This document shows positions 3,795 through 32,953 of a stretch of DNA of 38,261 bases, piece after piece (the first letter of the stretch is position 1; every line of letters begins with the position of its first letter). This DNA comes from Rhodoferax sp. (GTDB lineage Bacteria > Pseudomonadota > Gammaproteobacteria > Burkholderiales > Burkholderiaceae_C). Location of the stretch: positions 1-38,261 of the forward strand of contig NZ_JAGPBB010000035.1 in assembly GCF_018063565.1 (NCBI RefSeq), given 5' to 3'. The notes under the pieces were generated by a model. The model saw only the letters and a program-made list of their open reading frames with translations, had not been told where the DNA came from and did not search any database. A program made the position numbers and the translations under genes.

Positions 3795-3806
3795 GGGTTG
3801 TCTCCT

Positions 3807-3819
3807 GGGGTCAATCCCC
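3807..3819 (-). other. Small perfect hairpin in the liv 5' leader
   Basis: Four G and four C pair around a five-base loop (ggggtcaatcccc on the + strand). It lies between the predicted liv promoter and the leader-peptide ribosome site. There is no T-run after it on the transcribed strand, so it is not an intrinsic terminator. Confidence 0.35.
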
Positions 3820-3848
3820 GAATTTTGAAGTCATTTTGTCTTGCTTGA

Positions 3849-3877
3849 ATTCTGAAATACAGAATCCGTTCTGTCAA
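3849..3877 (-). promoter_or_regulatory. Candidate liv promoter with overlapping inverted-repeat operator
   Basis: On the minus strand TTGACA (3877-3872) and CAGAAT (3854-3849) are separated by 17 bp, a perfect -35 and a 4/6 -10. The inverted repeat ATTCTG-AAATA-CAGAAT (3849-3865) covers the -10 and half the spacer, a classic repressor position. Further TTCTG or CAGAA half-sites occur at 3869-3873, 3912-3916 and 3978-3991. The likely binder is one of the nearby regulators (PaaX-type or IclR-type), which is inference. Confidence 0.5.
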
Positions 3878-4224
3878 TTGGTATTTGGGCCCATCATCGC
3901 ATTTTTTTCACAGAATTTGCTTTTATAGATACGTTTTTTCTAAATGTTAAGACTTTTTGATGTCATTTTACTCATCTCAGAACAAATTCTGCATATCACA
4001 ATTCGTACCTCTAAATGAAATATTCTCTTATTAAGCATTGATTTATATATAAATTATGTTGAACTCTACATGAGATTGCGAGCCAAAGTTCTCTTTTTTC
4101 TTACTTTTCTCTTTTATGCGATACAGTTTTTGTTGCTTTTTTAATTTTTTAGTGACATGATTAGCTCGCGACTGACTGATTCAGCCAGCGCCACCCCACC
4201 ACACCCACCCGATGAGGAGACAAC

Positions 4225-5253: not shown

Positions 5254-5255
5254 GC

Positions 5256-17784: not shown

Positions 17785-19107
17785 ATGAACAACTACCGTC
17801 TACTTCCCCTTTCTGTGGTTCTGGCTACCCTTCTGGCGGAGCCGGTGGCAGCGCAAAGCCTGAGTGAACTGTACGATGCGGCGCGTCAGTTTGACAGCAC
17901 TTACCAGTCGGCCAGGCTGCAATACGACGCCAACCTTTCCAAGGCAGAGCAGGCACGTGCGGCCGTTTTACCCAGCGCCAATCTGGCACTGGGCATCAAC
18001 CGCACCCATGTGTCAAGCGATGTTGACAGCTTCGACCGTGGCAGTTTTGGCAGCCAGTCGGCCACGGTATCAGGATCGCAGCCTTTGTACCGACCTGCCA
18101 ACACCGCAACGGCCGAGCAAGGCAAAAAATTGATCACCATCGCCCAGGCGCAGCTCACGGCAGCCGAACAGGACTTGATCGTTCGGGTCAGCCAGGCGTA
18201 CTTTGATGTGTTGGCGGCCAGTGACAACCTGAACTTCATCAAGGCACAAAAGGCCGCAGTTTCCGAGCAACTGGCCTCGGCCAAGCGCAATTTCGAAGTC
18301 GGCACCTCCACCATCACCGACACCCGCGAGGCACAGGCCAAGTTTGATCTGGTACTGGCGCAGGAAATTGCGTCCGAGAACGACTTGAGGGTGAAGAAAC
18401 TCGCGCTCGACCAACTCACCGGAAAGGTCGATGCGACGCCGAAGCCCTTGAAAGTTCCCGCCACCATCGCTGCGGTCACTCCTGATGATGTGGGGCAATG
18501 GGTTACCTTGTCGCAGCAGCAGCACCCCAGCGTGCTGCAAGCCCAGCAGGCACTGGAAGTGGCGCAGCTCGAAACCCAGAAAGCCAAAGCCGGTCATTTG
18601 CCAACCCTGGATCTGACCGGAAGTTACAACATCACCCAAAACAACGGCTCATCGAGCACAACGCTGGACTATCGCAACAACGTCTTCGCCGTAGGCCTAG
18701 CCTTCAACCTGCCGCTGTTTGCCGGCTATGCCACGCAAAATCGCATCAAGGAGACGCTGTCCCTCGAAGACAAGGCGCGCACCGACCTTGAAGGTGCGCA
18801 GCGTGGTGTAGCGCAAGCCACCCGTGCCGCATTCTTTGGTGTTCGCTCAGGCTTGGGACAGGTCAAGGCACTCGAAGCGGCAGAGGCCTCCAGCCAAAGT
18901 GCGCTTGACGCCAACAAACTCGGTTACCAGGTCGGGGTGCGCATCAACATTGACGTGCTCAACTCGCAAAGTCAGCTCTTTGATACCAAAGCCAAACTCG
19001 CCAAGGCACGTTACGACGTGCTGGTGGGGACCCTCCGGCTGCGCCAAGCGAACGGCACACTTGACAGTGCCGACCTGCAGACGCTCAACGCCCTGATTGC
19101 CCAGTAA
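17785..19107 (+). CDS. tolC: TolC family outer-membrane channel
   Basis: This 440-residue protein has a signal peptide (cleavage near VAAQ, residue 24) and the duplicated TolC repeat. Each half begins with a SLSELYDAARQFDSTY-like or KALEAAEASSQSALDANK-like helix and contains a VGTSTITD or VGVRINIDVLNSQSQL turn. It forms a trimeric outer-membrane and periplasmic tunnel used by RND pumps and type I secretion. The upstream RND operon lacks its own channel, so TolC is the natural partner. Its ATG is 69 bp after the rhodanese gene. Convergent genes follow 93 bp downstream. Confidence 0.95.
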   Translation: MNNYRLLPLSVVLATLLAEPVAAQSLSELYDAARQFDSTYQSARLQYDANLSKAEQARAAVLPSANLALGINRTHVSSDVDSFDRGSFGSQSATVSGSQPLYRPANTATAEQGKKLITIAQAQLTAAEQDLIVRVSQAYFDVLAASDNLNFIKAQKAAVSEQLASAKRNFEVGTSTITDTREAQAKFDLVLAQEIASENDLRVKKLALDQLTGKVDATPKPLKVPATIAAVTPDDVGQWVTLSQQQHPSVLQAQQALEVAQLETQKAKAGHLPTLDLTGSYNITQNNGSSSTTLDYRNNVFAVGLAFNLPLFAGYATQNRIKETLSLEDKARTDLEGAQRGVAQATRAAFFGVRSGLGQVKALEAAEASSQSALDANKLGYQVGVRINIDVLNSQSQLFDTKAKLAKARYDVLVGTLRLRQANGTLDSADLQTLNALIAQ

Positions 19108-19200: not shown

Positions 19201-19593
19201 CTATTTTTTTAACAACTTCGCGGTCGTTTCTGCAGTTTGCCTGGCAATCACCAGTGTCTTGATATCCTCATAAACCTCACGACCAAGGATGCCGCGGGTC
19301 GTCAATTGCGCCTTGCTACCAAAGGGGCGACCGGCGATGATGGTCTGCGCAACGGCGTCCGTCACACCTGGCAGAGTCTTGAGTTCGTTGATGCCAGCGC
19401 TGTTGATGTCGACCAACCTTACCTTGGCCGCAGTGACCGGTTTGGCCTCCTTTTGATTCGAATTTTTTGATACGGGCGGCGCCGAACTGGCGGCTGCCTT
19501 CGCCACGGCCTTCTGCTCTGTTGCTGCGCCTGCTGCAAAGCCAGTAAAAAGCAGGAGTGTGCAAAACGAAATTCTCAGTACTGATAGCGACAT
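19201..19593 (-). CDS. Secreted helix-hairpin-helix (ComEA-like) protein
   Basis: This 130-residue protein has a signal peptide (MSLSVLRISFCTLLLFTGFA, cleaved near residue 24). A low-complexity Ala/Lys linker follows, then a ComEA-like helix-hairpin-helix domain with VDINSAGINELKTLPGV and RGILGREVYEDIK. ComEA proteins bind DNA in the periplasm during natural transformation, but secreted HHH proteins also occur as general add-ons. It is on the same strand as the cytochrome genes and lies just past the terminator hairpins, so it may be transcribed by readthrough or on its own. I chose the ATG at 19593, which puts the signal peptide at the N-terminus; an earlier ATG at 19617 would add eight residues. 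Confidence 0.82.
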   Translation of the reverse strand: MSLSVLRISFCTLLLFTGFAAGAATEQKAVAKAAASSAPPVSKNSNQKEAKPVTAAKVRLVDINSAGINELKTLPGVTDAVAQTIIAGRPFGSKAQLTTRGILGREVYEDIKTLVIARQTAETTAKLLKK

Positions 19594-19640
19594 GGTGGCT
19601 CTCGTTGGTCGATGCATGATGTGTAGATTATCAAAGGGCA

Positions 19641-19670
19641 TTGCCTGTTCCGATCAAAATGAACAGGCAA
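19641..19670. repeat. Perfect 10-bp hairpin between the cytochrome terminator and the HHH gene
   Basis: TTGCCTGTTC and GAACAGGCAA pair around a 10-base loop. It lies downstream of the T-tract of the preceding terminator on the minus strand. The + strand side is followed by an A-run, not a T-run, so it is not a terminator for plus transcription. Confidence 0.5.
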
Positions 19671-19758: not shown

Positions 19759-22542
19759 CTATTTGTGTGCAGCGACAACATCCTTGTCTTTGCCAACACC
19801 GTGGCAGCTTGCGCACACGCTTGCAGTTGCGTCAGAAGTGCCTGAGGCGACAGTGGAAGCAAACACGCTTCGAGCCTGATTGACCACAGCACTCTTGTAC
19901 AAACCAAAGTGGGTTGTCGCCTTGGCCGAGCTGTGGCACCCAACACAAGACGCCACATAAGGTGAGGTCACCTTGTCGGTCGTGTTATGAGTGTTCAACG
20001 CAGTCTTAGCCAGCACAGTAGTCGCGTTATTTGCGCCAATCGCTGTGTTGTAGGCCGCATCAATCGACTCATAGGTAGATGCCAAGGCATTGACCGGAAC
20101 ACCGCTGTACGTTCCTGCAACGTGACAGGTTTCACAGTTGTTGATCTTGCCCGGGAAGTCCATGCGTTTGAAGTCCAGCAGGGTAATGGCAGACGGCGTG
20201 CGGTCCCGTGCATCCATAAACGGTGCAGCGGTTTCGCGACCAGCATGAATACCGTGGATCATGTCCTTGAAGTTGTTGGTCACAACAGGCAATTTCAACG
20301 CTGCATTGGTCGCATTCTTGTCAAAGCCCCATCCGGCCAGAATCCGGTTATCCGCGGCCGTGAATGCCGTATAGGCCTTCAGAGCGGTATCGCTGATACC
20401 ACGTCCACTGGTCGCCAGACCCGGGGTGTGGCACATGACACAAACCTGTACTTGATAAACACGATTGCCGCCATGGCCTTCAAACCACTCGTGGCAATTG
20501 GAGCATTTGTCAGAGTCCACCACCTTGCGGCGTTCGGTGTCACCCGTGACGGACTTCACCACCGAGATGGCGTGACGCGCAGAGGCAGGCGAAACCTGGG
20601 TGTAGTACCCTTGCAAGCCCACCGCACGCAGCGTTGCACCGACCGGGAACTTCTTCGTGCCTGCGGCGTCGCCCTTGATGGTTGCCGTGTAATAACCGGC
20701 TGCATCAGCCGTTGCCGACATCGTACCCACGGTAGCTGCCTTGCTGGTGCTCAACAAGTCAGCCAGGGTAACGGAAATCGCCTGTGCTTGCTTGATACCT
20801 GCATTGTTGTAGTCCACAGGTGTAGCAATACCGTCCTGCGCTTGCGCATAAGCCAACAGGAAGCTAGGACCACCTGTAAAGCCAGTGAGCGAGTTCGAGA
20901 CAGTTGCGGCAGGTGCCACAAAAGTTACCGGCTTGCCATCAGCAGCGATCTTGAACACAACGGTCAGATTGTTGGTAGCGGCATCCACCGCAGCAGACTT
21001 GATGTCGTAGGTGAACGTCACCAGTCCAGCTTTGATCGTGGGATTGTGCTTGGTGATGTTCTCGGTCTGGTGATAGACCTTGATATCGGCAGGTGTATGA
21101 CAAATCGTACACGCTTGGTTGCTCAAGCCCTGACCAGGCAAGTGACCAGTCTTGGCCAGCACCGGATTTGTGCTTGCAGGTGCAGCGTTATACGCTTGTC
21201 CGTCAGCAATCGTGGAGCCCGCGCCCGTTTTCCAGTCGATACCGTCGTGGCAAGAGCCGCAAGCCAATTGACTGGGTTTGGTATTCCAGTTGTCGGCCTG
21301 AGCTGCCTTGGTGTTGTCGTGGCACTTGGCACACATCTTTTGACCACTGCCAAGGATCGAGAAGCCCTTTTGATCCAGAACTACGTTGGCCAGGTTGTAA
21401 TTTTCCTTGACCAGATCACCACCACTGTGAATCTTGTGAACCATGATCGGGAAATCGCCCAACACCTCACCGTCGGCAACTGACATGCTCGGGCTGTAGC
21501 GGTAGGACTTGATGCCCGTGGTTGCATCGGTCGTCACTGTTTCCGTCAATGCCGGGAACTTGCCGTTGGTGGACGCCACATTCGCTTTGCCAAACTTCAA
21601 CTGATCGTTGTGGCACACCACGCAGTACTGGGTGTCATTGCGGGAGCCATGCAGCGTGAGCTTTTCGTGGCACTCGTTACAAACGGTCTTGGATACGATT
21701 TCGCGCTGGAAATCTGTCGCAGAAACCGGCTTGCCATTCGCAGGGACAAAGTCATAAATGACATTGACCGGATTGGCCATGGCCACTGCGGTGACGCCAG
21801 AATTGCTGCCATCCGGGGTATTGGTGCCTGTGCCCGGTGCATTGCCAGAAACCTGAATGGTCAGGCGGTGCGTCAGGGTCGGATCATAGGTCAGATCACC
21901 CAGATCTGCTGCCACCTTTGGTGCAGCCAAGGTAGCAGAATCCACCAGCGCCTTGATGGCCTTGATGTCGCGACCAAAAGTGTAGGTATAGGTTCCATTC
22001 TTGTTGTCAACCAAGGTACCAAATTGGTCGGTGGTTGGCGTGGAAGGCACGGAGGCGACTTTGACGGTGCCATCGGCATTCAGCGTTGGCGCGGTGGTCA
22101 CAATGTAATTGACCCACTTGCTGACGTTGCCATCCTTGCCGGGGACCAACTTGGCCAGCGAGAAACGCAAGTTGGCCAGGCTGGCCAAATTGGTCGAGCT
22201 TGGCTTGTTGGTGGCGTTGAATCCAATGATGGGATTGTCCGCTGCCGTTCCGTCCGACATCGCAAAGGTTACAACAGCTGGGCTGTTAATGGCGACACCA
22301 CCGACGGTGACCTTAGGGGTCAGCGCGGCAAACTGCGCCGAAGTCAAGTTAGCCACATTGACAGGAGATGTACCTGTCGGAGGAGTCACCGAGGGAAGCG
22401 TTGGGCCGGGCGGCACCACGGCAGTATCTCCACCACCGCCACCACCGCAACCGGCGATGGCCATTGCCAACAGACCAGCCGCCGCATAGCGGGTCCAATG
22501 CGGCGATGGCCTGGGGTGAACTGACTGCACAGTAAGCTTCAT
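19759..22542 (-). CDS. Outer-membrane decaheme lipoprotein cytochrome (OmcA/MtrC family), distal copy
   Basis: This 927-residue cell-surface cytochrome would pass electrons from the MtrAB conduit to minerals or other acceptors. It has a lipobox (AIAGC, C32) followed by six Gly. Ten CXXCH hemes are split five and five: hemes 1-5 at residues about 288-482 and 6-10 at 680-914, with beta domains before each set as in MtrC. Every Cys after C32 belongs to a heme motif, so the CX8C disulfide of Shewanella MtrC is absent. The ATG at 22542 has AAGGAG. An FNR-like box lies about 100 bp upstream, so it may have its own promoter. It follows mtrB by 185 bp and is longer than the proximal copy by 124 residues. 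Confidence 0.93.
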   Translation of the reverse strand: MKLTVQSVHPRPSPHWTRYAAAGLLAMAIAGCGGGGGGDTAVVPPGPTLPSVTPPTGTSPVNVANLTSAQFAALTPKVTVGGVAINSPAVVTFAMSDGTAADNPIIGFNATNKPSSTNLASLANLRFSLAKLVPGKDGNVSKWVNYIVTTAPTLNADGTVKVASVPSTPTTDQFGTLVDNKNGTYTYTFGRDIKAIKALVDSATLAAPKVAADLGDLTYDPTLTHRLTIQVSGNAPGTGTNTPDGSNSGVTAVAMANPVNVIYDFVPANGKPVSATDFQREIVSKTVCNECHEKLTLHGSRNDTQYCVVCHNDQLKFGKANVASTNGKFPALTETVTTDATTGIKSYRYSPSMSVADGEVLGDFPIMVHKIHSGGDLVKENYNLANVVLDQKGFSILGSGQKMCAKCHDNTKAAQADNWNTKPSQLACGSCHDGIDWKTGAGSTIADGQAYNAAPASTNPVLAKTGHLPGQGLSNQACTICHTPADIKVYHQTENITKHNPTIKAGLVTFTYDIKSAAVDAATNNLTVVFKIAADGKPVTFVAPAATVSNSLTGFTGGPSFLLAYAQAQDGIATPVDYNNAGIKQAQAISVTLADLLSTSKAATVGTMSATADAAGYYTATIKGDAAGTKKFPVGATLRAVGLQGYYTQVSPASARHAISVVKSVTGDTERRKVVDSDKCSNCHEWFEGHGGNRVYQVQVCVMCHTPGLATSGRGISDTALKAYTAFTAADNRILAGWGFDKNATNAALKLPVVTNNFKDMIHGIHAGRETAAPFMDARDRTPSAITLLDFKRMDFPGKINNCETCHVAGTYSGVPVNALASTYESIDAAYNTAIGANNATTVLAKTALNTHNTTDKVTSPYVASCVGCHSSAKATTHFGLYKSAVVNQARSVFASTVASGTSDATASVCASCHGVGKDKDVVAAHK

Positions 22543-22634
22543 AAGGCTCTCCTTCGTTGTAACAAAAAGTTTTTTGATGCTAACTCAATTACCCCAAAAA
22601 TCGAAAGGGAATAGGGTCGGCAAATAAATATAGT

Positions 22635-22648
22635 TTGAGAAAAATCAA
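22635..22648. promoter_or_regulatory. FNR-like box upstream of the distal decaheme gene
   Basis: TTGAG-AAAA-ATCAA matches the FNR consensus TTGAT-N4-ATCAA in 9 of 10 defined bases. Its centre is 99 bp before the gene start. If it activates at -41.5, transcription would begin near 22600, where the minus strand offers only a weak -10 (TATTCC). Confidence 0.5.
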
Positions 22649-22727
22649 AGCCAGTTCACCGTGCGCGACTTCGCTGAACTCACCCAACTCGGATCAATCG
22701 TGCAGGCTACCCACGACAACGGTTGCA

Positions 22728-24941
22728 TCACGGCAGACGGTAGATGTAAGAAATACCAATAAAGCTGGCGGACTGAGACGGCTTATGCATCACCGTGGTG
22801 CCATCAGAATACGCAAACGGCACGCCGTTGTAGTTCCAGGCCCAGTCATTTATCTTCGTGCGTTGATGCACCAAGTCGACTCGAATGCCTGAGCGCTTGT
22901 CCAGTGCGTAATTTCCAAAGAGCTTCAGAGCGGTCTGGCGGTACACCACATCAGGTAGCCCACCCGTAGCCGCAAGCAGCGCCACACTGTCCGCCGTGGC
23001 AAACCTGTCGAGTGTTTGAGCGTAAACACTCTTCTCGTCACTGAATGTCACATTGCCACCGATTTCAAAGTTGCTGTTCACTTTGCCGGTAAAGCCAAGG
23101 CCAGCATTCAGACTGGTGTTCTCGAACGCCATCACATAACCTGCGTAACGTGATTGATTGAAACTCTGCACGCCGTGCGAAAGATAACCGTTGAAATTCC
23201 AGTTAAAGGACTCGGCGTAGGCAAAGTCGATGCCGAAGTGGTTCATCCGGGTGTCCTGCAGCCCGTAAGTGCTGGGCGACGAATAGCTATCCTTGCCACC
23301 TTCTGCAGTGAACTGCAGCGTGAGCTTTTTGGAGGCTTGCCAGTCCGCATACAGTCGCACCTTGTCACGATTTCGATCCGCCAGCATGGGCATGAACACC
23401 GCGCCAGGTAGGAAACCGTTGACAGCGTCAGCCGGGTTGACCACCTCGGTCACACCGACTCCGCTGTTGTCCCGAAGCCAGTTTGAACCGGTGCGCTTGC
23501 TGCTGGACAATGCCACGGTGCCACTGAAGTCCTCGGTCAACTGCCGGCGCAGTTCGGCGCGCAAGGTGGTTTCGTCGGTCTGCTGCCGCAGTGCGCTGAT
23601 ACCTGCTGCCGCGCTGCTGGCAGTGAACGCACCCCGATCGATCGACTCATAATTTGCCGCGACTGTGCCGCGATAGCCACCAGAGAACTGCCAGTTGGCT
23701 TCCAGCTTGCCCCGAGTCCTTTGATCAGGCAATGTGCGGTTGGTATAACGTGTGCTACCGTCAGCATTGTTGTAGTAGGCCAGCGGCGTCTGGTCGTCTT
23801 TGTCGTCATAACGCAAATCGGCTAACAAAGTCAGGTTTCGCATCGGGTGGGACGACACACCCAACCGGACCGATGTCGTAATCACTTTGCCCGCCAGGCT
23901 GGATACACCGACGGGCGCACCCGCTAGCCCATCTGCTGCAAAATTGCTGTCCTGAGTGGCATTGGCGTAAGCCAACCGGAACATTGCCCGCGTCGTGTCG
24001 GTAAACGCATAACTCCCCGCCACATCAAGTTGATGCGCCTGATTGTCAGGTGTCAATGCCACCGGTTGACTCAATAGTGCCTGCAAGCCGCTGCTGAGAC
24101 TCAACGGACTTCCCAACGGGTTGTTCAGGACACTGGGTACAGCCGGATTCAGGGTGGAGTAATCGTTGCGGTAAAACGAGCCGTAATAACCGGCGCTGAT
24201 GCTGAACTTGTCGCGCGCATAGGTCAGACGCGCCTCCATCTGACTATGATTGGCGCTAATGGGTTCTGGCAACATAAGCAGCGCCCAACCCGTGTTGAAA
24301 CCGGTGGTTGGCCCGCACGAGGCAATTGCAGAAAAACAGTTCATGCCGACACCAAACAGCCGAGAACCCTCCTTCTTTTCAGTCTTGAGCTCAATATCGA
24401 TTTGCACGTCGTTGCTCACCCGCTTGGAAAAGCCCACACCCAAGCCGGTTCGCTTGGTTTTCAGGTCAAACTCTGTGCCGGTACCCAAACCACCCGGCAA
24501 TAGCGCGACCTGAGGGTTGGTGGAACCGACACCACTCAACCCACTGTTAAAGCTGTTCGGGTCGTAGTGCACCAGTTCCGAATAGTCGACACTGGCCTTC
24601 CATTCGCCTGGGTTGCGCCACACCAGGTGCATTTCACGCGAATCCCCCAGCAGATTCTCACCCTTGAAGTCAATCCATGTGGCGGTTTCGTGCTTGCGCA
24701 GGCGGTAATCAATGTCAAGGATTCCCACCGCTTGCTGGCTACCCTCCAGCCCATAATATTGCCCAAACAGGGCACGATCAGCGCGTGTTCCATTCACCAG
24801 CCCGGCACCAACCGCGATGGTTGCCTGCACCGGTGGTGCCTCGTCGTCGCCAGCGGCCGCCGGCATGGAGACACACAATGTGCAGGCCGCCAGGGCGACC
24901 GCTGAAAGACGAAAACGAGAAGAAAAATCAGAGTGGGTCAT
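22728..24941 (-). CDS. mtrB: MtrB/PioB family outer-membrane porin
   Basis: This 737-residue protein has a signal peptide (cut near AAAG, about residue 31) and then alternating amphipathic strands typical of a large beta-barrel, with motifs such as GLGVGFSKRVSNDVQIDIELKT split over neighbouring strands. MtrB sheathes MtrA across the outer membrane. Shewanella MtrB is about 700 residues and needs an N-terminal CXXC; here the only CXXC (CTLC, residues 20-23) lies in the signal peptide, and the mature part has just two Cys near residue 205 (NCFSAIASC). The chain ends YRLP, not in an aromatic residue as most barrels do. It starts 16 bp after mtrA with a GGAGAG site. Confidence 0.9.
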   Translation of the reverse strand: MTHSDFSSRFRLSAVALAACTLCVSMPAAAGDDEAPPVQATIAVGAGLVNGTRADRALFGQYYGLEGSQQAVGILDIDYRLRKHETATWIDFKGENLLGDSREMHLVWRNPGEWKASVDYSELVHYDPNSFNSGLSGVGSTNPQVALLPGGLGTGTEFDLKTKRTGLGVGFSKRVSNDVQIDIELKTEKKEGSRLFGVGMNCFSAIASCGPTTGFNTGWALLMLPEPISANHSQMEARLTYARDKFSISAGYYGSFYRNDYSTLNPAVPSVLNNPLGSPLSLSSGLQALLSQPVALTPDNQAHQLDVAGSYAFTDTTRAMFRLAYANATQDSNFAADGLAGAPVGVSSLAGKVITTSVRLGVSSHPMRNLTLLADLRYDDKDDQTPLAYYNNADGSTRYTNRTLPDQRTRGKLEANWQFSGGYRGTVAANYESIDRGAFTASSAAAGISALRQQTDETTLRAELRRQLTEDFSGTVALSSSKRTGSNWLRDNSGVGVTEVVNPADAVNGFLPGAVFMPMLADRNRDKVRLYADWQASKKLTLQFTAEGGKDSYSSPSTYGLQDTRMNHFGIDFAYAESFNWNFNGYLSHGVQSFNQSRYAGYVMAFENTSLNAGLGFTGKVNSNFEIGGNVTFSDEKSVYAQTLDRFATADSVALLAATGGLPDVVYRQTALKLFGNYALDKRSGIRVDLVHQRTKINDWAWNYNGVPFAYSDGTTVMHKPSQSASFIGISYIYRLP

Positions 24942-24957
24942 GATGGCTCTCCGTACA

Positions 24958-26019
24958 TCAGCGCATCAATCGCTGGGGTGTCCCATTGGTGGTGGATGGG
25001 TTGTTTGACCCATGAACCTGCGTGTGGCAGTTCATGCAACTGCGTCCCTGCCACATGTTGACAACGTTTTTACCGCCCGTCACACCCGTGATGAGTGGCG
25101 AGGTCTGTCCCAGAGCCGCCAGACCATAGACTCCGGCCTGTCCGCCAAGGCCACCCACGCCACCGGCCACGTGCGGCGTATGGCATTGCTGACACAACAT
25201 GGGCGCACGCGCCTTGAGCATGCCTGGCACGGTGCTGCCGTGGGAATTGTGGCAATTGGAGCAGTCGTCTGCCACCGGCTGATGTGGGTGCACAAACGGA
25301 CCCCGCTTTTCAGCGTGACAGGTAAAACAGGTGTCTGTCATTGTGCTGCGCTTGGCCAGCTTGTCGCCCGCAGAGCCATGAACGTTGTGGCAGTCCGAAC
25401 ATGCCATCTTGCCTTCAGACACCGGATGGTGCGACGGGCGATTGACCTGATTGCGTACATCTTTATGGCAGGTATAGCAAGACTCGGTCTGATTGACGCG
25501 ACCACTCAGTACTTTGTCACGACTGGTGTGCACCTGGTGGCAAGAGTCACAGGCAATATCGGCCGACTGATGCGGGCTACCGAGCCAATAGGCGCGTTTG
25601 GCATCCCGGTCATGACACGCCAGACACACCCGGCTGCGCTCAGATGGCGGCAGCGCCGAAATTTTGCCAGGCTTCTTGCCGTAGGTGAAATCGGGCTTGG
25701 GCAGATCTTTGGCTCCCTCGGGTTTGAACGAGTGGGTGTCACTTTCACCGTGACAACTGGCGCAGGTGGGTGCACGCAAATTATCGATATCCCCCATGAC
25801 ACGACTGCTCAGTGCGGCAGCTGCTGCAGCCATGGGGGGTTTCTTTACGTCGACGGGCGCATGCAGGCTGTCGCTCATGTCGGGCAGGTCGTCCTGATCG
25901 TGACAGCTCACGCAAAGCGCAGCACCCTTCAGACTCCTGTCTGGCTCCGCTCCCCATGCCGAACCCAGCATGCCCATCAAACACAGGCCCAAAATGGCCA
26001 GCGCAAGTTTCGTCTTCAT
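24958..26019 (-). CDS. mtrA: Periplasmic decaheme cytochrome MtrA (DmsE family)
   Basis: This 353-residue protein has a signal peptide (MKTKLALAILGLCLMGMLGS, cut near residue 24) and exactly ten CXXCH motifs, from C36 to C328. Its length and heme number match MtrA (about 335 residues). MtrA forms the heme wire through the MtrB barrel and receives electrons in the periplasm. Distal His ligands recur in the spacing CHNVHGS, CHNSHGS and CHTPHVA. The gene lies directly before mtrB, the order seen in Shewanella (mtrC-mtrA-mtrB). Between hemes 9 and 10 is a Gly-rich insertion of about 45 residues. Confidence 0.95.
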   Translation of the reverse strand: MKTKLALAILGLCLMGMLGSAWGAEPDRSLKGAALCVSCHDQDDLPDMSDSLHAPVDVKKPPMAAAAAALSSRVMGDIDNLRAPTCASCHGESDTHSFKPEGAKDLPKPDFTYGKKPGKISALPPSERSRVCLACHDRDAKRAYWLGSPHQSADIACDSCHQVHTSRDKVLSGRVNQTESCYTCHKDVRNQVNRPSHHPVSEGKMACSDCHNVHGSAGDKLAKRSTMTDTCFTCHAEKRGPFVHPHQPVADDCSNCHNSHGSTVPGMLKARAPMLCQQCHTPHVAGGVGGLGGQAGVYGLAALGQTSPLITGVTGGKNVVNMWQGRSCMNCHTQVHGSNNPSTTNGTPQRLMR

Positions 26020-26086
26020 TCCAACCCCTTAAGAACAGGTCCAGGTACGCATGACTGAGCCAAAGCTCCGGTGACCAGGTCGACGA

Positions 26087-26104
26087 GGGGCATCAATCTG
26101 CCCC
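26087..26104 (-). repeat. Hairpin in the mtrC-mtrA intercistronic gap
   Basis: GGGGCA and TGCCCC pair perfectly around six bases, and outer arms CAGGT (26076-26080) and ACCTG (26110-26114) extend the structure. No T-tract follows on the minus strand. It may stabilise or process the mRNA between the two cistrons (109-bp gap). Confidence 0.5.
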
Positions 26105-26128
26105 CTGTGACCTGAAAGTCATACCGGA

Positions 26129-28540
26129 TCAGTTCTGTCCATGAACGATATCGACACCCTTGAACTTGCCGCTCGAGTGGCAGTCATAACAGCCCTCTTT
26201 GGGCAACCCATTGATCTGAGACTGGGTCAGGTTGCCAAACGATGCCGGTGGATCACTGAAAGTCGTGACGTGACCGATCGCCTTGCTTGAATCATGGCAG
26301 GAGGTGCAGCTGGCGGCCATGGGCGAAATCACCTTGTATCCCAAAGGATCCGCTCCGGTAACCCGGGGTGACACGGTTGCGCCCAGCGGCCCAAGATCCT
26401 GCTTATAGGAGTTGTTGACATGGCAGGCATTGCAATTGATGCCTACGCCGGGCCAGGCTACCTCAGCGGCGTAATTTTCGACACCAGCAGCAAGCGGCGC
26501 CCCACCCGTAGCAGACGTTCCATCCTTGTTGAAAACTCCCACCACTGCATTGCCGTGAGTAAACGGTGTGGTACGCACCGAGTTGCCGTGAATGCCGTGG
26601 ATCATGCGTTTGAACTGATACGACTCATTCATCGCCATCCCATTGGTCATGATCGTGGACGAGGCCCGGTTTGCATCATGGCAGACCGCACAGGACTCAA
26701 CGGTGTTGCGTGCGCCGCTGTGGAAGGCATTGTCGGCCGTGTTAGAACCTGACGTAGTCCCCAAGGCACCATGACAGACATTGCACTTTTCATTGGAAAC
26801 AACCGCTCGGCGCGGGTTCAGCGCGCTGCCGCTGAGCAGCACATCCTTAAAGGTGTGCTGAACCACAATGTTGGCATTCACCGCCGGGGTAACTTCCTTG
26901 CGAGTCTTGACGTCAAGTTTGTTTTCAATGACCTGCCCATAGCTGACGACCCGCGCGGTTCCAGAGGCAATCGCGATGGCGGTGTCATCCGGTATCGCGA
27001 TGTCCACCTTAAACCGGTTGCCGCCCAGATTGACGCCATCCTTGGCATACGCATTGGCAGAACTTCCGCCATTGTTGTAGGCCGAGAACTCCGTGATGGC
27101 GTTGGGCTGGCCATTACTGGTTTGCGTCGTCATATTTTGGTATGCCAGCACAAAACGCAGGCTTCCAAATTTCTTGGCGTCGGATTTCAGATCCCAAACG
27201 GTGCCATCGAGCGGATTGGATAGCGCGTAAGTCACCGACACCTTACGGGCTTTCTTGTCAGCAGTGTCATTGAACGCCACGCTGTCAATACTCATCTTGT
27301 ACTTGGCAGAATTTTCCTCATTCTGGTTCCAGTGCACCCATTCCGGTGAAATGGTCACATCACCCAGGTGACAGCCTGAGCACAATTGATTGCCCATATC
27401 GGTGGCCTTGGCCGCAGTATCCTTCAGCACAGACACCGCAATGGCATTGTGGCTGGTATTCCAGGGCGAACCGGTCTTGTTGGCGTGGCAAGTCAGACAG
27501 GCCTCTTTGGAAACCTTGGCCTTCCAGTTGTCACCTTGCGGGGTATTCGGATTGGCACTTGAGTGGCACACTGCGCAATTGCGCAAGTCCTGCGGGAAAC
27601 CCACCTCGGCGTAATTGTGTTTGGCATTGCCGTAGCCCCAGATGGTGTAGTCCTCACCACCAGCCGCCAGATTCTTCTTGAGCAACTTGCCCGCGTGGAT
27701 CTTGTGGCTCATGGTCGCCATATCCAGGTTGTTGCCACTTTCAGGGTCAACCGTACCCGTGTTATGACACATCACGCAGTACTGGGTGTCCACACGTCCG
27801 CCACCATGCAGGGCCAGCTTCTCGTGGCAGCCGTTGCACGATGCCACATCGGTCATCTTGCGGGTCTTGGCCGGGTCAGTCACGACGACCGACTTGCCGT
27901 CCACAATGGTGAAATCAAAATAGGGGTTGACCAGCACATCCTCGCCGGCGGCATTCTTGTAGCTCAGCTGAATGGCCACACGGTGGGTGCGGTTGGGTTC
28001 ATAGCTGATGCCGGGCACTGACTTGATGTCGGTCGAAAACGTGTAGGTGTAATAACCTTCTGCGTTGTACACCAGTTGGGATGCGGCTGCGGTGTCCGTG
28101 CTCGCTTGCGGCGCCGAAGCCAGCGCAGGGGATCCGCCCGGACCAAAACCGGGTTTTCCGGCGACCTGCTTGGTCACATAGCTCACCCACTGATCCGGGG
28201 TGCCCGAGGTTCCAGGCAGCAATTTGGCGATGGCAAAGCGGGTGTTGGCCGTGGTCAGGCCAGTCTTGACCTTGCCATCAGAGAAGACCACAAACTTGAC
28301 CACCGGCGGGCTGTTGACCGTGACCGCGGGAACGCCAGCGTTCTGTAGCACAACAAACGATGCCGAGGAATTCACGGCGGTGTCATTGCTCGCGACGGCA
28401 GCTGCCTTGGCAATCGCCTCCGCCAGCGGTGTGGACGTTCCAGGCTGCCCGGTACTGTCCCCGCCGCCGCCGCCGCCGCATCCTGCAATTGCAGCGAGCA
28501 CCACCAAAGCCGCGCCCCATCGAATCAATGACTTTTTCAT
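26129..28540 (-). CDS. mtrC: Outer-membrane decaheme lipoprotein cytochrome (MtrC-like), proximal copy
   Basis: This 803-residue surface cytochrome lies directly upstream of mtrA, the place of mtrC in Shewanella. The lipobox is AIAGC with C21 as the lipidated residue, followed by six Gly as in the distal copy. Ten CXXCH motifs are split five and five, hemes 1-5 at residues about 235-391 and 6-10 at 586-788. Central and N-terminal beta domains lie outside these sets. No Cys remains outside the lipobox and hemes, so the MtrC CX8C disulfide is lacking. The ribosome site is weak. Both decahemes are probably exposed on the surface and may accept electrons from the same MtrAB pore or divide substrates between them. 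Confidence 0.93.
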   Translation of the reverse strand: MKKSLIRWGAALVVLAAIAGCGGGGGGDSTGQPGTSTPLAEAIAKAAAVASNDTAVNSSASFVVLQNAGVPAVTVNSPPVVKFVVFSDGKVKTGLTTANTRFAIAKLLPGTSGTPDQWVSYVTKQVAGKPGFGPGGSPALASAPQASTDTAAASQLVYNAEGYYTYTFSTDIKSVPGISYEPNRTHRVAIQLSYKNAAGEDVLVNPYFDFTIVDGKSVVVTDPAKTRKMTDVASCNGCHEKLALHGGGRVDTQYCVMCHNTGTVDPESGNNLDMATMSHKIHAGKLLKKNLAAGGEDYTIWGYGNAKHNYAEVGFPQDLRNCAVCHSSANPNTPQGDNWKAKVSKEACLTCHANKTGSPWNTSHNAIAVSVLKDTAAKATDMGNQLCSGCHLGDVTISPEWVHWNQNEENSAKYKMSIDSVAFNDTADKKARKVSVTYALSNPLDGTVWDLKSDAKKFGSLRFVLAYQNMTTQTSNGQPNAITEFSAYNNGGSSANAYAKDGVNLGGNRFKVDIAIPDDTAIAIASGTARVVSYGQVIENKLDVKTRKEVTPAVNANIVVQHTFKDVLLSGSALNPRRAVVSNEKCNVCHGALGTTSGSNTADNAFHSGARNTVESCAVCHDANRASSTIMTNGMAMNESYQFKRMIHGIHGNSVRTTPFTHGNAVVGVFNKDGTSATGGAPLAAGVENYAAEVAWPGVGINCNACHVNNSYKQDLGPLGATVSPRVTGADPLGYKVISPMAASCTSCHDSSKAIGHVTTFSDPPASFGNLTQSQINGLPKEGCYDCHSSGKFKGVDIVHGQN

Positions 28541-28577
28541 TTTTATCCCGCCGTGTTCAATTTAACTGATTTACGCC

Positions 28578-28606
28578 GAACGGCCCGCAAACCTGTGGGC
28601 CGGTTC
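28578..28606 (-). repeat. Hairpin between the small cytochrome c gene and mtrC
   Basis: GAAC-GGCCC and GGGCC-GGTTC arms pair with one bulge around a central loop. It lies 7 bp after the cytochrome c stop. The T-run is before, not after, the hairpin on the minus strand, so it may separate mRNA abundance of the small cytochrome from the downstream genes rather than end transcription. Confidence 0.5.
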
Positions 28607-28612
28607 AAAAAA

Positions 28613-28957
28613 TCAATGTGACAAATACCAGTCGGCAATGTTCTTAAGCTCCTTCTGATCTTTGGTATCAATGATCTTGTGCTTTTCTTCGGTGCCATCA
28701 GTCAGCTTGACCTTCTGCCCTTCCGTCATGTTCTTGATCGCCAATGCCTGACCATCAGGCTTGCCACGATACTTGTCAGCAATCTTTTTCATCGACGGGC
28801 CCTTTTTGTCTTTGTCAGCAGCATGGCATTTCAGACAATCGTTGGATTTGGCGAGCGCCTTGGCGGCCTCTACATCAACTGCGGCCTGTGCGGGCGCAGC
28901 AGCACCCAATGCAAACAGAACGGCTGTAGCCAGGGTAGACAGAGAGATTTTTGTCAT
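28613..28957 (-). CDS. Small periplasmic monoheme cytochrome c
   Basis: This 114-residue protein has a signal peptide cleaved near A25 and one heme site, CLKCH, at residues 41-45. The class I cytochrome fold is supported by the C-terminal helix KELKNIADWYLSH. In this class a Met usually sits just before that helix; here the position holds EEKH (H93), and Met residues occur only earlier (M56, M77). The heme may therefore have bis-His ligation, which is inference. It could carry electrons between the inner-membrane complex and MtrA. It has an AAGGA ribosome site and its own upstream FNR-like boxes, so it may be expressed as a separate strong unit. Confidence 0.9.
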   Translation of the reverse strand: MTKISLSTLATAVLFALGAAAPAQAAVDVEAAKALAKSNDCLKCHAADKDKKGPSMKKIADKYRGKPDGQALAIKNMTEGQKVKLTDGTEEKHKIIDTKDQKELKNIADWYLSH

Positions 28958-29014
28958 TTGATCATTCCTTTGATGAGTTGAACTTGTCTAGAGAGACGAC
29001 GGAGATTTGAAATC

Positions 29015-29028
29015 TTGCTTTAGATCAA
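29015..29028. promoter_or_regulatory. FNR-like box, cytochrome c promoter
   Basis: TTGCT-TTAG-ATCAA matches TTGAT-N4-ATCAA in 9 of 10 defined bases. With the centre at -41.5, transcription would begin near 28980, leaving a 22-base leader that includes the AAGGA site. The -10 is poor (TCTAGA). Confidence 0.5.
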
Positions 29029-29071
29029 GTCAAGAGTCATATGACGGGTTTTCCATTTAAGTCTGTCCACG

Positions 29072-29085
29072 TTGATTTAAATCAA
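29072..29085. promoter_or_regulatory. Perfect FNR consensus box
   Basis: TTGAT-TTAA-ATCAA matches the FNR half-sites exactly and is also a full palindrome. It lies 57 bp upstream of the degenerate box and 34 bp beyond the cytochrome b stop. This is the strongest FNR-type site in the window. Confidence 0.7.
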
Positions 29086-29118
29086 AGCAGACGCATAAAA
29101 GTGGGGCGCACCCGCAAC

Positions 29119-29751
29119 TCAGGACTTGCTTTTGTCGTGAATTTCCTCGTAGCCTGTGAGCATGGCCTTGATGTGGGCGAACCGCGAGTGACCCAAGGTG
29201 ATCAGATACAGGTGCATGAGCAGGAAGCCACAGAAAACAATGAACATCAGCACATGCACCGTATCAACAACCCGCACCCCGCCAAACAAATCGATCAGAC
29301 TTGAAAAGCGCTTGACATCCCACAGCAACAGGCCCGACAAAAACATGATCGGCACCATCAGCAGCATGATGATCTGGTACATCATGATCTGCAGCGGATT
29401 AAATTTGTGATAAATCGTCGGATGATGCGGGTTCTCCTCGCCCAAAAAGATGCCATACCCGTAGAACTTGATCTGCCGCCACGAATCCTCAAAATATTTC
29501 TTGGGGTTCATCTCTGGCAAATAAACCGTGATCTTGTCGGTGAAAAGGTAAAACCCCAGCCACAAAAAGAAGTTGCCCATCAGCACAAAGCCAATCCAGT
29601 TGTGCACCACGACAGCGGTTCTGAAGGGGATCAACTGCACCAGATCGAGGTACCGAATCTGAATCCCGGTGGCAATCATCACCAAAAACCCCATGGCGTT
29701 GACCCAGTGCCAGATGCGCACGGGAAGCGGATGAATATAGACTTTTTTCAT
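29119..29751 (-). CDS. Diheme cytochrome b (FdnI/HydC-like membrane subunit)
   Basis: This 210-residue inner-membrane protein has four hydrophobic segments and four well-placed His ligands for two b hemes: H15 (WHW), H50 (HNW), H166 and H180 (DTVHVLM...LLMH). It begins IHPLPVRIWHW, a signature of the formate dehydrogenase/hydrogenase b-type subunit family. It probably oxidises or reduces quinol and exchanges electrons with the nine-heme cytochrome encoded directly upstream (25 bp gap, AAGGA site). No molybdopterin or hydrogenase subunit is nearby. The same two parts are fused in Geobacter CbcL. The ATG at 29751 is chosen; an in-frame start 78 bp upstream would overlap the neighbour. Confidence 0.88.
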   Translation of the reverse strand: MKKVYIHPLPVRIWHWVNAMGFLVMIATGIQIRYLDLVQLIPFRTAVVVHNWIGFVLMGNFFLWLGFYLFTDKITVYLPEMNPKKYFEDSWRQIKFYGYGIFLGEENPHHPTIYHKFNPLQIMMYQIIMLLMVPIMFLSGLLLWDVKRFSSLIDLFGGVRVVDTVHVLMFIVFCGFLLMHLYLITLGHSRFAHIKAMLTGYEEIHDKSKS

Positions 29752-29776
29752 GGCTGATTCCTTGAGTTCTGGCGGG

Positions 29777-31204
29777 TCATTGGGTCGACTTGGCAGACGC
29801 ATTTTTCCGCTTCGCATTGCGTTCATCACGCTGGCGTTTGAACAGTCGGTGCGCCGTCATGTGACCGATTGGCACCACCAGTACACCCAACACCACCAGC
29901 ACCAGCAGGTAATCCAGTAATTTGATCCGCGTGCTGCCGATGGCGTAAAAGCCGCGCATGGACCCCATGGCAGTCGCCGAGGTCAGCACCTCTTTTTCTA
30001 CGCCCTCGCGCATCAGCCGGCCATCGGGTCCGGCCATGGACAACACCACACTGACAAAGGGCACGGCACCAGCCTGGTGGCAAACCTTGCAGTCCTTGAT
30101 GGCCAGGTCCTTGGTGCTGAGCTGATGCGCCTGAATGCCTGAGCGCACTTCGAGCCGACCACTCAGGATCGCCTTGTTGTCGGGATTTGCCAGGTTGAAT
30201 TCCTTCAGGAAACTGCTCAGCTCTTTTTCGTTCAAGTTACCTTCGGTGCCGTTGGCAGCGTTAACCAGGCGTTCAAATTGCGGCACACCCTTTTTCTCGA
30301 TCAGCTGCTTGCCTCCAACGCTGTCCACCATTCTGAGGTTGACCCGACGCTGGGCATAAGGGGCATGGCAAACCGGGCAGGATATCGCCTCAAAGTGCCG
30401 ACCGGAATTGGGCAACCATTCCTCATGCTTGGCCACTGAATCCTTGTGACAGGCCAGACAAGAGTCCTTGATATCGCTTCCTACCGCCGCAGCCTTGATG
30501 GCGTGTGACTTGTGGCAATCGGCACACAAAGGTGCGGTCTTGCCCTTGGCCACCCGCTCCAGCCCATGCACATCTTCCGCATAGGCGCGGAAAATCTCCT
30601 TGTGGCAGGTGGAACACGGCACGTTGGCAATGGGCTCCACCAACTTGACCGACTTGAGGGTATGCGAGTTGTGGCAGTCGGAGCAGGTAGGCGCCTTGTC
30701 ACTGCCATCGGCAACCATCGAGGCGTGCACGCTGTCCTTGAATTCCGCCACATTTTTCTTGTGGCAAGTCGTGCAGGCGTTCTGGAACGACATCCGATAG
30801 GCGCGTTTGCTCTTCATGGGGACCGCCACTTTGCCGTGGTCTTTGCCATCGGCATCCTCGTGGCAGTCGGTACAACTGGTCTCGAAGTGCATCGAGTCAA
30901 TGAAATCTTTGGTCGATATCCGCATGGAGACGGATTCACCCAGCTCGGTTTTCTTGACTGCGATGTCCTCCTTGTCGTGGCAACTCTGGCACGCTGCGTC
31001 CTCTTCACCCAGCGTGACGCCGACACGGGACTTGTTGGCCGCACTGGGTTTGGCGGCACTGGCGGGCTGGGCAGGCTCGGCCACCGGATTGGCGTCAGCA
31101 GACATCACAACCGGACCAGCCATCGCCAGCACCAGACTGACCAAAGCTGATCTCAAAAGTCCATTGGTGAGCCACGCCATGCGAGGTATGGAAGTTCTTT
31201 TCAT
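29777..31204 (-). CDS. Membrane-anchored nine-heme cytochrome c
   Basis: This 475-residue protein has a signal peptide (cut near residue 36) and nine CXXCH motifs between residues 72 and 376. Hemes 2-7 have the regular CXXCH...H pattern of c7/NrfH-like multihemes. A single C-terminal anchor at about residues 428-450 is followed by a basic tail (RLFKRQRDERNAKRKN), which should face the cytoplasm. It probably takes electrons from the cytochrome b and passes them to periplasmic carriers. I chose the ATG at 31204, which starts the signal peptide; the frame continues up to a TTG at 31243 that adds 13 residues. No CymA/NapC-type gene is present in the island. Confidence 0.92.
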   Translation of the reverse strand: MKRTSIPRMAWLTNGLLRSALVSLVLAMAGPVVMSADANPVAEPAQPASAAKPSAANKSRVGVTLGEEDAACQSCHDKEDIAVKKTELGESVSMRISTKDFIDSMHFETSCTDCHEDADGKDHGKVAVPMKSKRAYRMSFQNACTTCHKKNVAEFKDSVHASMVADGSDKAPTCSDCHNSHTLKSVKLVEPIANVPCSTCHKEIFRAYAEDVHGLERVAKGKTAPLCADCHKSHAIKAAAVGSDIKDSCLACHKDSVAKHEEWLPNSGRHFEAISCPVCHAPYAQRRVNLRMVDSVGGKQLIEKKGVPQFERLVNAANGTEGNLNEKELSSFLKEFNLANPDNKAILSGRLEVRSGIQAHQLSTKDLAIKDCKVCHQAGAVPFVSVVLSMAGPDGRLMREGVEKEVLTSATAMGSMRGFYAIGSTRIKLLDYLLVLVVLGVLVVPIGHMTAHRLFKRQRDERNAKRKNASAKSTQ

Positions 31205-31289
31205 GGATAAAGTCTCATGTAGAAAATTCGCCGTCGTGCTCAAGCGCGGACTGACATGCGGAGGAAAGCGTGCCGACTGGAGCGGTGAC

Positions 31290-31478
31290 TTATTTGCTGG
31301 CCTGACCCGCTTGCGAAACCGACTTTCGCTCGTTCATGGCCAACTGAAACAGCTTGCCAGGCAACAAAACCGCGTAATACAACCCGATGAACGGAGATAT
31401 CAAAAACAGGCCAATATTCTTGAGCCTGCTACCCTGAGCCGCGGGCGCCGCCGACTCGTTTGCTGATGTTTCAGTCAT
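31290..31478 (-). CDS. Small single-span membrane protein, first gene of the cytochrome operon
   Basis: This 62-residue protein has one hydrophobic segment (NIGLFLISPFIGLYYAVLLP, residues about 21-40) between a polar Ala/Ser-rich N-terminus and a basic C-terminus. I do not recognise a family. It lies 85 bp before the nine-heme gene and is probably the promoter-proximal gene of the operon, so a subunit or assembly role in the inner-membrane complex is possible. The ATG at 31478 follows the palindrome at 31506-31519 and a poor AGAAG ribosome site. Codon use and reading frame are consistent with a real gene, but homologues would need checking. Confidence 0.6.
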   Translation of the reverse strand: MTETSANESAAPAAQGSRLKNIGLFLISPFIGLYYAVLLPGKLFQLAMNERKSVSQAGQASK

Positions 31479-31624: not shown

Positions 31625-32953
31625 TCAGACTGCTTCAGATGACGCAATGACTTTTGCCAAACGCCGAGCAGCGCCGCGGTGTTCTTGTGCGAAGTGCCCA
31701 CAGGCCAGCCGACTTGACATCAGATTCTCCGCATCGACCGCCAGTGCAACAGCGGTTTGGATGCCCAGCGCCAGACTTTCAACTCTTTGGGCGGCGCCAG
31801 CCACCAATGCCTGCTCTGCTGCGTCGGCGAAATTGAACGTGTGCGGCCCCATCACGATCGGGCAGCCACAGGCGGCCGCCTCGATCAGGTTCTGACCGCC
31901 CAATGGCTCAAAACTGCCACCCAGCAATGCCACATCGGCCAGCCCGTAATACAAGGCCATCTCACCCAGCGTGTCGCCCAACCAGACATTCGGTGAACCG
32001 GTAGCAGCCACCCCACCGGGGCCTACCTCACCCCATTGACTGCGCCGCGACAAGCCAAACCCCTGCGCCCGAATCAAGTCGGCCACGGCGTCAAAACGCT
32101 GCGGGTGCCTCGGGACAATCAACCAGTGGACACGACTTGCTACATTGATGGAAGCATTTCCCGATGGATGGATAACCGCTGGAGGGACAAATGCCTTCAG
32201 ATTCTGCAGCAGGGACAACTCTTCGCCCTCGCGCGACACTGCCAGAATGACCACCGGCCTGGCCAATGCCGCACGCCAGTCGCGCCCGGTCGCCATCTGT
32301 TGCGCATCGGGCGTGGCATCAAACTTCAGGTTACCCAACACCCCCCGCACCGGCGCGCCGATTTGTATGAGTCGATCCGCATCCGCCTGGGTCTGCGCCC
32401 AGACGCTGGTCAACGCCCGGTAGGCAGGACGCGCCAGCCAGGCCAGCCGCTGCGCCTGCCGCAAAGACTTGTCGCTCAAACGGGCATTGGCCAGCACCAG
32501 CGGCACACCTCGCTGACGGCAACCATGCACCAGGTTGGGCCAGATCTCAGTCTCCATCAACACCCCAAGCGCGGGTTTGAAATGCTGCAAGAACCGCGAC
32601 ACTGCGCCGATGGTGTCCCAAGGTTGCCAACATTGCAGGTCACCCGACTGAAGCAAACCACGGCCTTCCGCCCGGCCAGTGGCCGTACCATGAGTGAGCA
32701 GCAAACGCATACCGGGTATTTCGCTGCGCAGCGCCGTGATCAACACCGCAGCAGCGCGCGTCTCCCCCAGCGAGACAGCGTGAATCCAAACCAGCGGCCC
32801 ACCGCCCTGCTGCGGCTTTGCCATGGCATACCGGCCAAAACGCTCGTCAATGTATTCCAGATAGCCCGGCTCCTTCGCCCCGCGCCGACGCAGTTTGCGC
32901 AGCAACAGGGGTTGCGCCAGCCACATCAGCAGCGCATACAGCCAGCGGGTCAT
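31625..32953 (-). CDS. waaA: 3-deoxy-D-manno-octulosonic acid transferase WaaA (KdtA)
   Basis: This 442-residue inner-membrane enzyme attaches Kdo to lipid A precursor on the cytoplasmic face. It has an N-terminal anchor (about residues 3-16). The catalytic Glu lies in HAVSLGETRA near residue 60. The donor-binding loop is GGSFEPLGGQNLIEAA in the C-terminal domain. The ATG at 32953 overlaps the waaC stop (ATGA); a longer frame to 33052 would overlap waaC without support. The next gene on its 3' side is the cytochrome island on the same strand, with 146 bp between. Essential lipopolysaccharide genes flank the electron transfer cluster here. Confidence 0.95.
   Translation of the reverse strand: MTRWLYALLMWLAQPLLLRKLRRRGAKEPGYLEYIDERFGRYAMAKPQQGGGPLVWIHAVSLGETRAAAVLITALRSEIPGMRLLLTHGTATGRAEGRGLLQSGDLQCWQPWDTIGAVSRFLQHFKPALGVLMETEIWPNLVHGCRQRGVPLVLANARLSDKSLRQAQRLAWLARPAYRALTSVWAQTQADADRLIQIGAPVRGVLGNLKFDATPDAQQMATGRDWRAALARPVVILAVSREGEELSLLQNLKAFVPPAVIHPSGNASINVASRVHWLIVPRHPQRFDAVADLIRAQGFGLSRRSQWGEVGPGGVAATGSPNVWLGDTLGEMALYYGLADVALLGGSFEPLGGQNLIEAAACGCPIVMGPHTFNFADAAEQALVAGAAQRVESLALGIQTAVALAVDAENLMSSRLACGHFAQEHRGAARRLAKVIASSEAV

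Follow-up and report, generated by a model that had tools for sequence, protein, structure and literature searches.

A conserved MtrCAB island of a Rhodoferax sp. with a two-gene nine-heme cytochrome c/cytochrome b module that appears separate from MtrH

An extracellular electron transfer island with a quinone-type module

The DNA analysed here (the window) is a stretch of 38,261 nt of the Rhodoferax sp. contig NZ_JAGPBB010000035.1, and the element in question is a gene island on its minus strand, at positions 19759-31478. The island is genuine and conserved; it is of the extracellular electron transfer type and combines an MtrCAB conduit with a quinone-type module, made up of a nine-heme cytochrome c and a separate cytochrome b. 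With a probability of about 0.7, we consider that it provides a single path for electrons between the quinone pool and the cell exterior. The genes, their heme and histidine motifs, their order and their families are established. The nine-heme/b pair is also shown to be conserved as a unit and to co-occur with MtrB in the genus; its sequence sets it in a family apart from MtrH, and the quinone-type module is probably not CbcL.

From 31478 to 19759 the order is tm62, nine-heme cytochrome, cytochrome b, monoheme cytochrome, MtrC, MtrA, MtrB and second MtrC, all on the minus strand with intergenic gaps of 16-185 bases. The tm62 gene (31290..31478) encodes a 62-aa protein with one hydrophobic segment; it has no receiver but resembles the membrane tail found at the C-terminus of receiver-domain proteins. 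The nine-heme c-type cytochrome (29777..31204; the open reading frame (ORF) list places the start at 31243, against 31204 used here) has nine CxxCH motifs, a signal peptide-like N-terminus and a C-terminal membrane helix. The diheme-type cytochrome b subunit, with an FdnI-like fold (29119..29751; PF01292, 92.9 bits), was given a start chosen from its relatives, the mechanical ORF beginning upstream at 29829. The monoheme class I cytochrome c (28613..28957, one CxxCH) is a putative MtoD-like periplasmic shuttle; its best sequence match among solved structures in the PDB was 4xxl_A (E 2.1e-31), which we take to be Sideroxydans MtoD. Two MtrC-family decaheme surface lipoproteins (26129..28540, TIGR03507, 540 bits; 19759..22542, TIGR03507, 384 bits; ten CxxCH each) enclose an MtrA-family decaheme periplasmic cytochrome (24958..26019, ten CxxCH; TIGR03508, 261 bits, cut-off 192) and an MtrB/PioB outer-membrane barrel (22728..24941, no CxxCH; PF11854 MtrB_PioB, 454 bits). 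Adjacent genes thus match PF11854, TIGR03508 and TIGR03507 above cut-off, as in an MtrCAB conduit. By eye, I-A-G-C was seen near the N-terminus of both MtrC-family proteins; a lipobox pattern with an obligatory leading L matched neither of them. ORFs, CxxCH counts and profiles confirmed the gene list of a preliminary description of this DNA (nine-heme cytochrome, cytochrome b, 62-residue protein, monoheme cytochrome, two decaheme lipoproteins, MtrA and MtrB in a minus-strand run).

The genus-mate G654 carries the identical nine genes in the identical order, including the gene for a small helix-hairpin-helix (HhH) protein at the island end (19201..19641, minus strand; PF12836), and the layout is therefore more than chance. 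Homologues of the HhH gene are found in many mtr loci of the genus, and an HhH gene adjoining mtrC is mentioned in PMC8805035. The island is bordered by a tolC-type outer-membrane efflux gene (17785..19107, plus strand; PF02321 OEP, 180 bits) and by a waaA-type 3-deoxy-D-manno-octulosonic acid (Kdo) transferase gene (31625..33052, minus strand; PF04413, 207 bits), hereafter the tolC-waaA slot. In 2-kb blocks, the G+C content is 0.53-0.58 across the island; elsewhere in the window most blocks have 0.59-0.64, and two at 2001-6000 have 0.57. Sites found by a promoter and terminator scan were no more frequent than in shuffled sequences.

The nine-heme/b pair is a conserved unit

In all 117 loci read, the pair is encoded by two separate genes on the same strand, with no fusion (80 loci from a scan of genome contigs, 29 from the genus and 8 others, some genomes being counted twice). 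The b-subunit histidines H15, H50, H166 and H180 are invariant in 51/51 aligned sequences, and H448, in the anchor helix of the nine-heme protein, in 54/54; a histidine at a similar place of the anchor helix was seen by eye in FdnH, HyaA, the octaheme tetrathionate reductase (OTR) family and MtrH. Homologues with 13 or 17 CxxCH were also observed, each then followed by the same kind of b subunit (L082, L084, L087, L088, L100, L102, L103, L105-L108, L112 and L113, in records titled Nitrospirae, Nitrospira, Thermodesulfovibrionales, Alphaproteobacteria or Rhodospirillales).

Profiles were compared with families represented by 1-18 sequences each, and in these comparisons as in the trees the CbcL family was represented by MtrH only. 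The b-subunit profile scored 202 against OTR-type b, 173 against YdhU (PhsC-type), 89 against HydC-type, 70 against FdnI/FdoI and 2.6 against the MtrH b domain, whose own profile scored 59 against FdnI/FdoI and at most 13 against the remaining groups. By profile, the b subunit looks closest to OTR/PhsC-type b cytochromes. The same split was found in a 32-row maximum likelihood tree of b subunits (support 99/98), where MtrH grouped with FdnI/FdoI. The b subunits of the pair and those of the OTR family form separate groups on the same side of this tree; joining them was not rejected by the approximately unbiased (AU) test (p 0.36). The 32-row tree supersedes an earlier b tree (AU p 0.098) that included a single MtrH sequence and showed very long branches.

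The nine-heme protein and the MtrH heme domain are homologous (profile score 162, E 9.7e-30, 333 columns, 23% identity), and the PF01292 superfamily takes in both b parts, MtrH scoring 25.2 bits, below the cut-off of 30.1. The OTR models TIGR04315 and PF11783 found no match in the nine-heme protein at E 0.1. The preliminary description had read the island as an Mtr conduit linked to a two-gene, split CbcL-like complex. Conduit, multiheme/cytochrome b module and monoheme shuttle are indeed in one island; a split CbcL by homology was rejected by the b profile and by the tree split, which place the pair with a different family, with the caveat that the AU test does not (p 0.23).

Both types occur in one genome (G596, presumably R. 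ferrireducens, T118 chromosome). Its mtr cluster contains two NapC/NirT genes together with MtrH, read as a 691-aa protein with eight CxxCH, in agreement with PMC6295460; a nine-heme/b pair accompanied by a receiver-tail protein is located 1.5 Mb from this cluster. Elsewhere in the window genome, an OTR-family protein is encoded together with a b subunit of its own and a monoheme cytochrome, in a layout like that of the nine-heme module (C186, L034:7384-10033).

Structures were predicted as single chains. The b-subunit model (predicted local distance difference test (pLDDT) 87) had FdnI as its best fold match in the PDB (1kqf_C, template modelling score (TM) 0.71, E 1.9e-3), and the b sequence alone gave no meaningful PDB match. 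The nine-heme model (pLDDT 82.9) shows a long C-terminal helix at 425-474; by sequence it matched 28pb_A in the PDB (E 3e-13), named only "Cytochrome c" and uninformative on function. The helix count of nine-heme protein, b subunit and tm62 (1+4+1) is six, the same as in CbcL, and tm62 may supply the sixth helix of the complex.

Distribution in the genus

Among 89 genus genomes, the nine-heme gene was found in 38 (E <= 1e-40), MtrB in 50 over cut-off (51 at E 0.001) and MtrH in 45 (E 1e-40). Nine-heme gene and MtrB occurred together in 37 genomes, the nine-heme gene alone in one, MtrB alone in 13 and neither in 38 (Fisher p 1e-12); the genus statistics are not corrected for relatedness, and many of the genomes are incomplete drafts. 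We called class A the nine-heme copies at least 65% identical to that of the window (10 genomes) and class B the rest (28). Nine-heme gene and MtrB lay on one contig within about 20 kb in 8/10 class A and 0/28 class B genomes, the two class A exceptions (G627 and G618) having them on separate contigs. MtrH was present in 3/10 class A and 25/28 class B genomes (p 8.7e-4), and six of the 50 MtrB genomes lacked both MtrH and class A. In the window genome, which is 92.8% complete, MtrH gave no match at E 1e-40 and at E 0.01 only fragments inside the nine-heme gene. In conclusion, the pair form of the window tends, within the genus, to occur where MtrH is absent. In G649 (L180), a second MtrA/MtrB pair, divergent in sequence (43% and 25%), lies beyond the nine-heme island.

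tm62 resembles the tail of receiver proteins

A search for a known family gave no Pfam or NCBIfam match for tm62. It is 65-79% identical over 24-31 residues to the tails of proteins encoded beside the nine-heme gene in L024-L028, with lower identity in many other loci. Among the tail-bearing proteins scanned, a receiver domain (PF00072) was present in those of L025, L028 and L030 and absent from the small protein of L024. L024 also encodes, at 2126-2551 and 4041-4424, small proteins with two tm62-like membrane segments each, without receiver. Free copies of tm62 have a conserved core in 14 aligned sequences, with a median ratio of non-synonymous to synonymous differences (pN/pS) of 0.44 (91 pairs).

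Tail states were mapped on a nine-heme tree. Of 118 rows, 13 with 13 or more hemes and 3 truncated ones were removed, and the remaining 102 were reduced to 81 by collapsing at 95% identity. Judged by motif in the ORF that bears the tail, 48 rows were receiver-fused, 16 free and 17 unassigned, the latter having no tail found, a cut at a contig edge or a receiver that was not recognised. The tail-bearing ORF lies directly upstream on the same strand in 42/48 fused rows and in 13 of the 15 free rows besides the window. The free state corresponds to two changes on the tree, one in the clade of the window (14 rows) and one in Ideonella A288 plus KLAP50, and both receiver-free lineages have mtr genes. 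Among contig-scan loci that extend 5 kb or more to one side, the free form had mtr genes in 7/11 and the fused form in 2/36 (p 1.6e-4). This count replaces an earlier one (free 13/16, fused 2/48), nine of whose 48 fused rows stemmed from short loci with flanks of about 1.5 kb, while longer stretches had been used to label several of its free rows. Taken as independent origins of the free form, the two events give a sign test p of 0.5.

Homologues of an NtrC-type regulator and of a sensor kinase were both present in 32/36 fused, 0/9 free (one with NtrC alone) and 8/16 unassigned loci (61 contig-scan loci with at least 4 kb downstream). The receiver acceptor position is Asp in 61 of 68 receiver-bearing copies and Glu in one, six not being parsed; the G596 kinase has a CxxCH between its two hydrophobic segments. 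Most assigned relatives of the pair have beside them, in addition to a sensor kinase and an NtrC-type regulator, a receiver with a membrane tail, and most copies near mtr genes keep the tail only. In the window genome, a search with these signalling partners matched the receiver-tail protein at receiver level only (best 35%) and the kinase only in part (best 39% over 239 residues). A literature search combining response regulator, multiheme cytochrome and Rhodoferax themes gave no match, which is not proof of absence in print. The L069/L030 locus (G103) holds both mtr genes and a receiver-tail protein, in which the acceptor Asp is replaced by Glu.

Other quinol dehydrogenases in the window genome

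As the preliminary description had stated, the island run has no CymA/NapC gene: within the window none exceeds the NapC/NirT cut-off (PF03264, 24.1), the best score being 14.3 bits, inside the nine-heme gene. It had also called for a check of cymA elsewhere in the genome, and there a CymA-like gene is present (C38), about 51% identical in product to both NapC/NirT proteins of the G596 mtr cluster. A CymA-type route may run in parallel. The C38 stretch (L033:3509-8266) also holds a haem-type TonB receptor. Another NapC/NirT protein, on C64, is TorC-like and lies beside a TorA-family reductase.

Proposed electron route and alternatives

In the route that we favour, the four-helix cytochrome b would exchange electrons with quinol or quinone in the inner membrane, and the nine-heme subunit, docked on it via its C-terminal helix, would conduct them into the periplasm. 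tm62 would complete a membrane complex of about six helices. The MtoD-like cytochrome would shuttle to MtrA, MtrAB would span the outer membrane, and the two MtrC lipoproteins would face minerals or electrodes. Several observations weigh against this proposal or against the family and tail assignments that go with it. Three NapC/NirT proteins are encoded elsewhere in the window genome (C48, C64 and C38), and the C38 gene adjoins genes for PdsA-like and MtoD-like cytochromes. The likeness of the heme domain to that of MtrH is not exclusive, the nine-heme protein scoring 82 over 200 columns against the MtrA profile, and Foldseek found no PDB match to the nine-heme model at E 0.001 (best, hydroxylamine oxidoreductase, E 0.05). 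A clade of the b subunits with MtrH was not rejected (AU p 0.23). Finally, there are only two receiver-free lineages (sign test p 0.5); in the second of them (L065, L073) the tail-like ORF, 37-43% similar, lies past the b gene on the opposite strand, and L069 and L071 hold both mtr genes and the receiver form 4-7 kb away.

In the opposite direction of flow, MtrCAB and the MtoD-like shuttle could import electrons from Fe(II) or Mn(II), the nine-heme/b pair then reducing quinone, and we take this reversal seriously while holding the odds to be against it. The shuttle is MtoD-like, mtr-linked relatives of the pair occur in Ideonella sp. A288 (L073), a member of the PMC8805035 set, and Rhodoferax MIZ03 oxidises and reduces iron (PMC8552755); however, the sequence holds nothing that sets direction, and the account of CbcL, MtoC and MtrH in PMC6295460 gives no feature separating the two directions. 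The C38 CymA-like protein would be the real quinol dehydrogenase for MtrA in another scheme, the pair being accessory or a redox-sensing remnant. This is suggested by its resemblance to the G596 mtr-cluster proteins and by its neighbours, a monoheme cytochrome 45% identical to that of the window and a PdsA-like diheme protein (NF049874, 54 bits, cut-off 330), by a 63% homologue in G670 that shares its contig with mtr genes and the pair, and by the kinase and regulators that often accompany relatives of the pair. We find it unlikely, as the pair is intact beside mtr genes in 8/10 class A genomes, and as the window genome gives only receiver-level and partial kinase matches to the signalling partners.

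It would be more surprising still if the pair were a CbcL/MtrH/MtoC protein split in two genes, making the island a Geobacter-Shewanella hybrid. CbcL likewise has nine hemes and a b cytochrome (PMC9129911), and the homologous heme domains, the shared PF01292 superfamily and the AU result agree with such an origin. The b subunit nevertheless scores 2.6 against the MtrH b domain and strongly against OTR b and YdhU, the tree separates them at 99/98, and G596 carries MtrH and the pair 1.5 Mb apart; we therefore regard the split as very improbable. The route through the nine-heme/b pair remains our preferred reading.

Relation to known systems

CbcL is described as having nine c hemes and a six-helix diheme b domain, and CbcBA is named as a third inner-membrane cytochrome (PMC9129911). 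The CbcL homologues MtrH and MtoC are found inside mtrAB and mtoAB clusters, including that of R. ferrireducens with two cymA genes (PMC6295460), and mtoC and mtoD lie beside mtrCAB in the betaproteobacterial Group 4 (PMC8805035). The module shares with CbcL, MtrH and MtoC (Geobacter, R. ferrireducens, Dechloromonas, Gallionella) a multiheme periplasmic domain and a membrane b cytochrome; these are one polypeptide, whereas here two genes and a small membrane protein are found, with a b subunit of apparently another branch. CbcBA of Geobacter sulfurreducens reportedly is a two-gene b/c inner-membrane cytochrome. With the OTR family, as in C186, the module has in common a multiheme protein with a C-terminal helix and a separate b subunit (31% identical to that of the window), but the OTR models do not match the nine-heme protein. 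FdnI/HyaC/PhsC-type modules similarly combine a four-helix b subunit with a partner that has one His-bearing C-terminal helix (by eye, FdnH and HyaA); their partners are iron-sulfur subunits, whereas in the island the partner is a nine-heme cytochrome. To our knowledge, the coupling of betaproteobacterial Mtr conduits to the quinone pool has never been tested by mutants.

The MtrCAB/mtoCD clusters of Group 4 (PMC8805035) share MtrC, MtrA, MtrB, the MtoD-like shuttle and the HhH gene with the island, and the Group 4 accounts in that paper describe no small membrane-tail protein, receiver link or tolC-waaA slot. The mtoC of PMC8805035 may include the nine-heme/b pair, the set of that study containing Ideonella sp. 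A288, which carries the pair beside mtrC, mtrA and mtrB (L073). The "hybrid of the two best known routes" of the preliminary description holds in so far as a CbcL-like protein goes with mtrCAB, which is already published (PMC6295460, PMC8805035), and is not supported for the split-CbcL identity; the hybrid idea is not new because MtrH and MtoC have been reported in mtrAB/mtoAB clusters (PMC6295460). What the analysis adds is the identity of the module, the likely origin of tm62 and the tolC-waaA slot, the coupling of CbcL-like proteins to MtrCAB being known. Since the distinct, conserved two-gene module takes the place that MtrH or a NapC-type gene has in other islands, a single genus allows inner-membrane partners to be compared cleanly: the slot is the same and MtrAB is related, while the partner differs. 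Should the membrane-tailed receiver indeed bind the complex, a respiratory cytochrome complex and a two-component system would be physically linked in an unusual way.

The tolC-waaA slot

A tolC match was found in 84/89 genus genomes. The slot was read in 32 genomes with a tolC or waaA flank, a non-random draw, among which tolC abuts waaA in 10, mtr-type genes occupy the slot in 16 and six are unresolved; three of the 10 closed-slot genomes have MtrB elsewhere (G604, G646, G668). Slot islands carry the nine-heme module in the window genome (G000), G654, G624, G637, G615 and G649, MtrH in G318 and G639, and a NapC-type gene in G661. In other genomes (e.g. G598, G631, G645), mtr genes are at the slot and the fetched stretch holds neither the nine-heme module nor MtrH nor a NapC-type gene. 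G596 has tolC at 2.87 Mb and its mtr cluster at 4.54-4.56 Mb. Insertion scars are reported in general by PMC8805035, the main text of which contains neither 'TolC' nor 'waaA'.

We tentatively propose, at somewhat less than even odds, that the nine-heme/b complex began as a quinone-linked complex physically tied to signalling via a tail-tethered receiver, accompanied by an NtrC-type regulator and by a sensor kinase that has a heme-binding motif. At least two draftings into mtrCAB islands would have stripped it of receiver, kinase and regulator, the tail staying as a structural subunit, and the tolC-waaA slot would act as a socket for inner-membrane modules that are swapped while the outer-membrane conduit stays the same.

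A second MtrB tail lies in the window genome beside a second tolC, 83% identical to that of the window (G000:C52, L278, 3193 bases); it may stem from a related strain binned together with this genome (contamination 3.6%) or be a genuine second copy.

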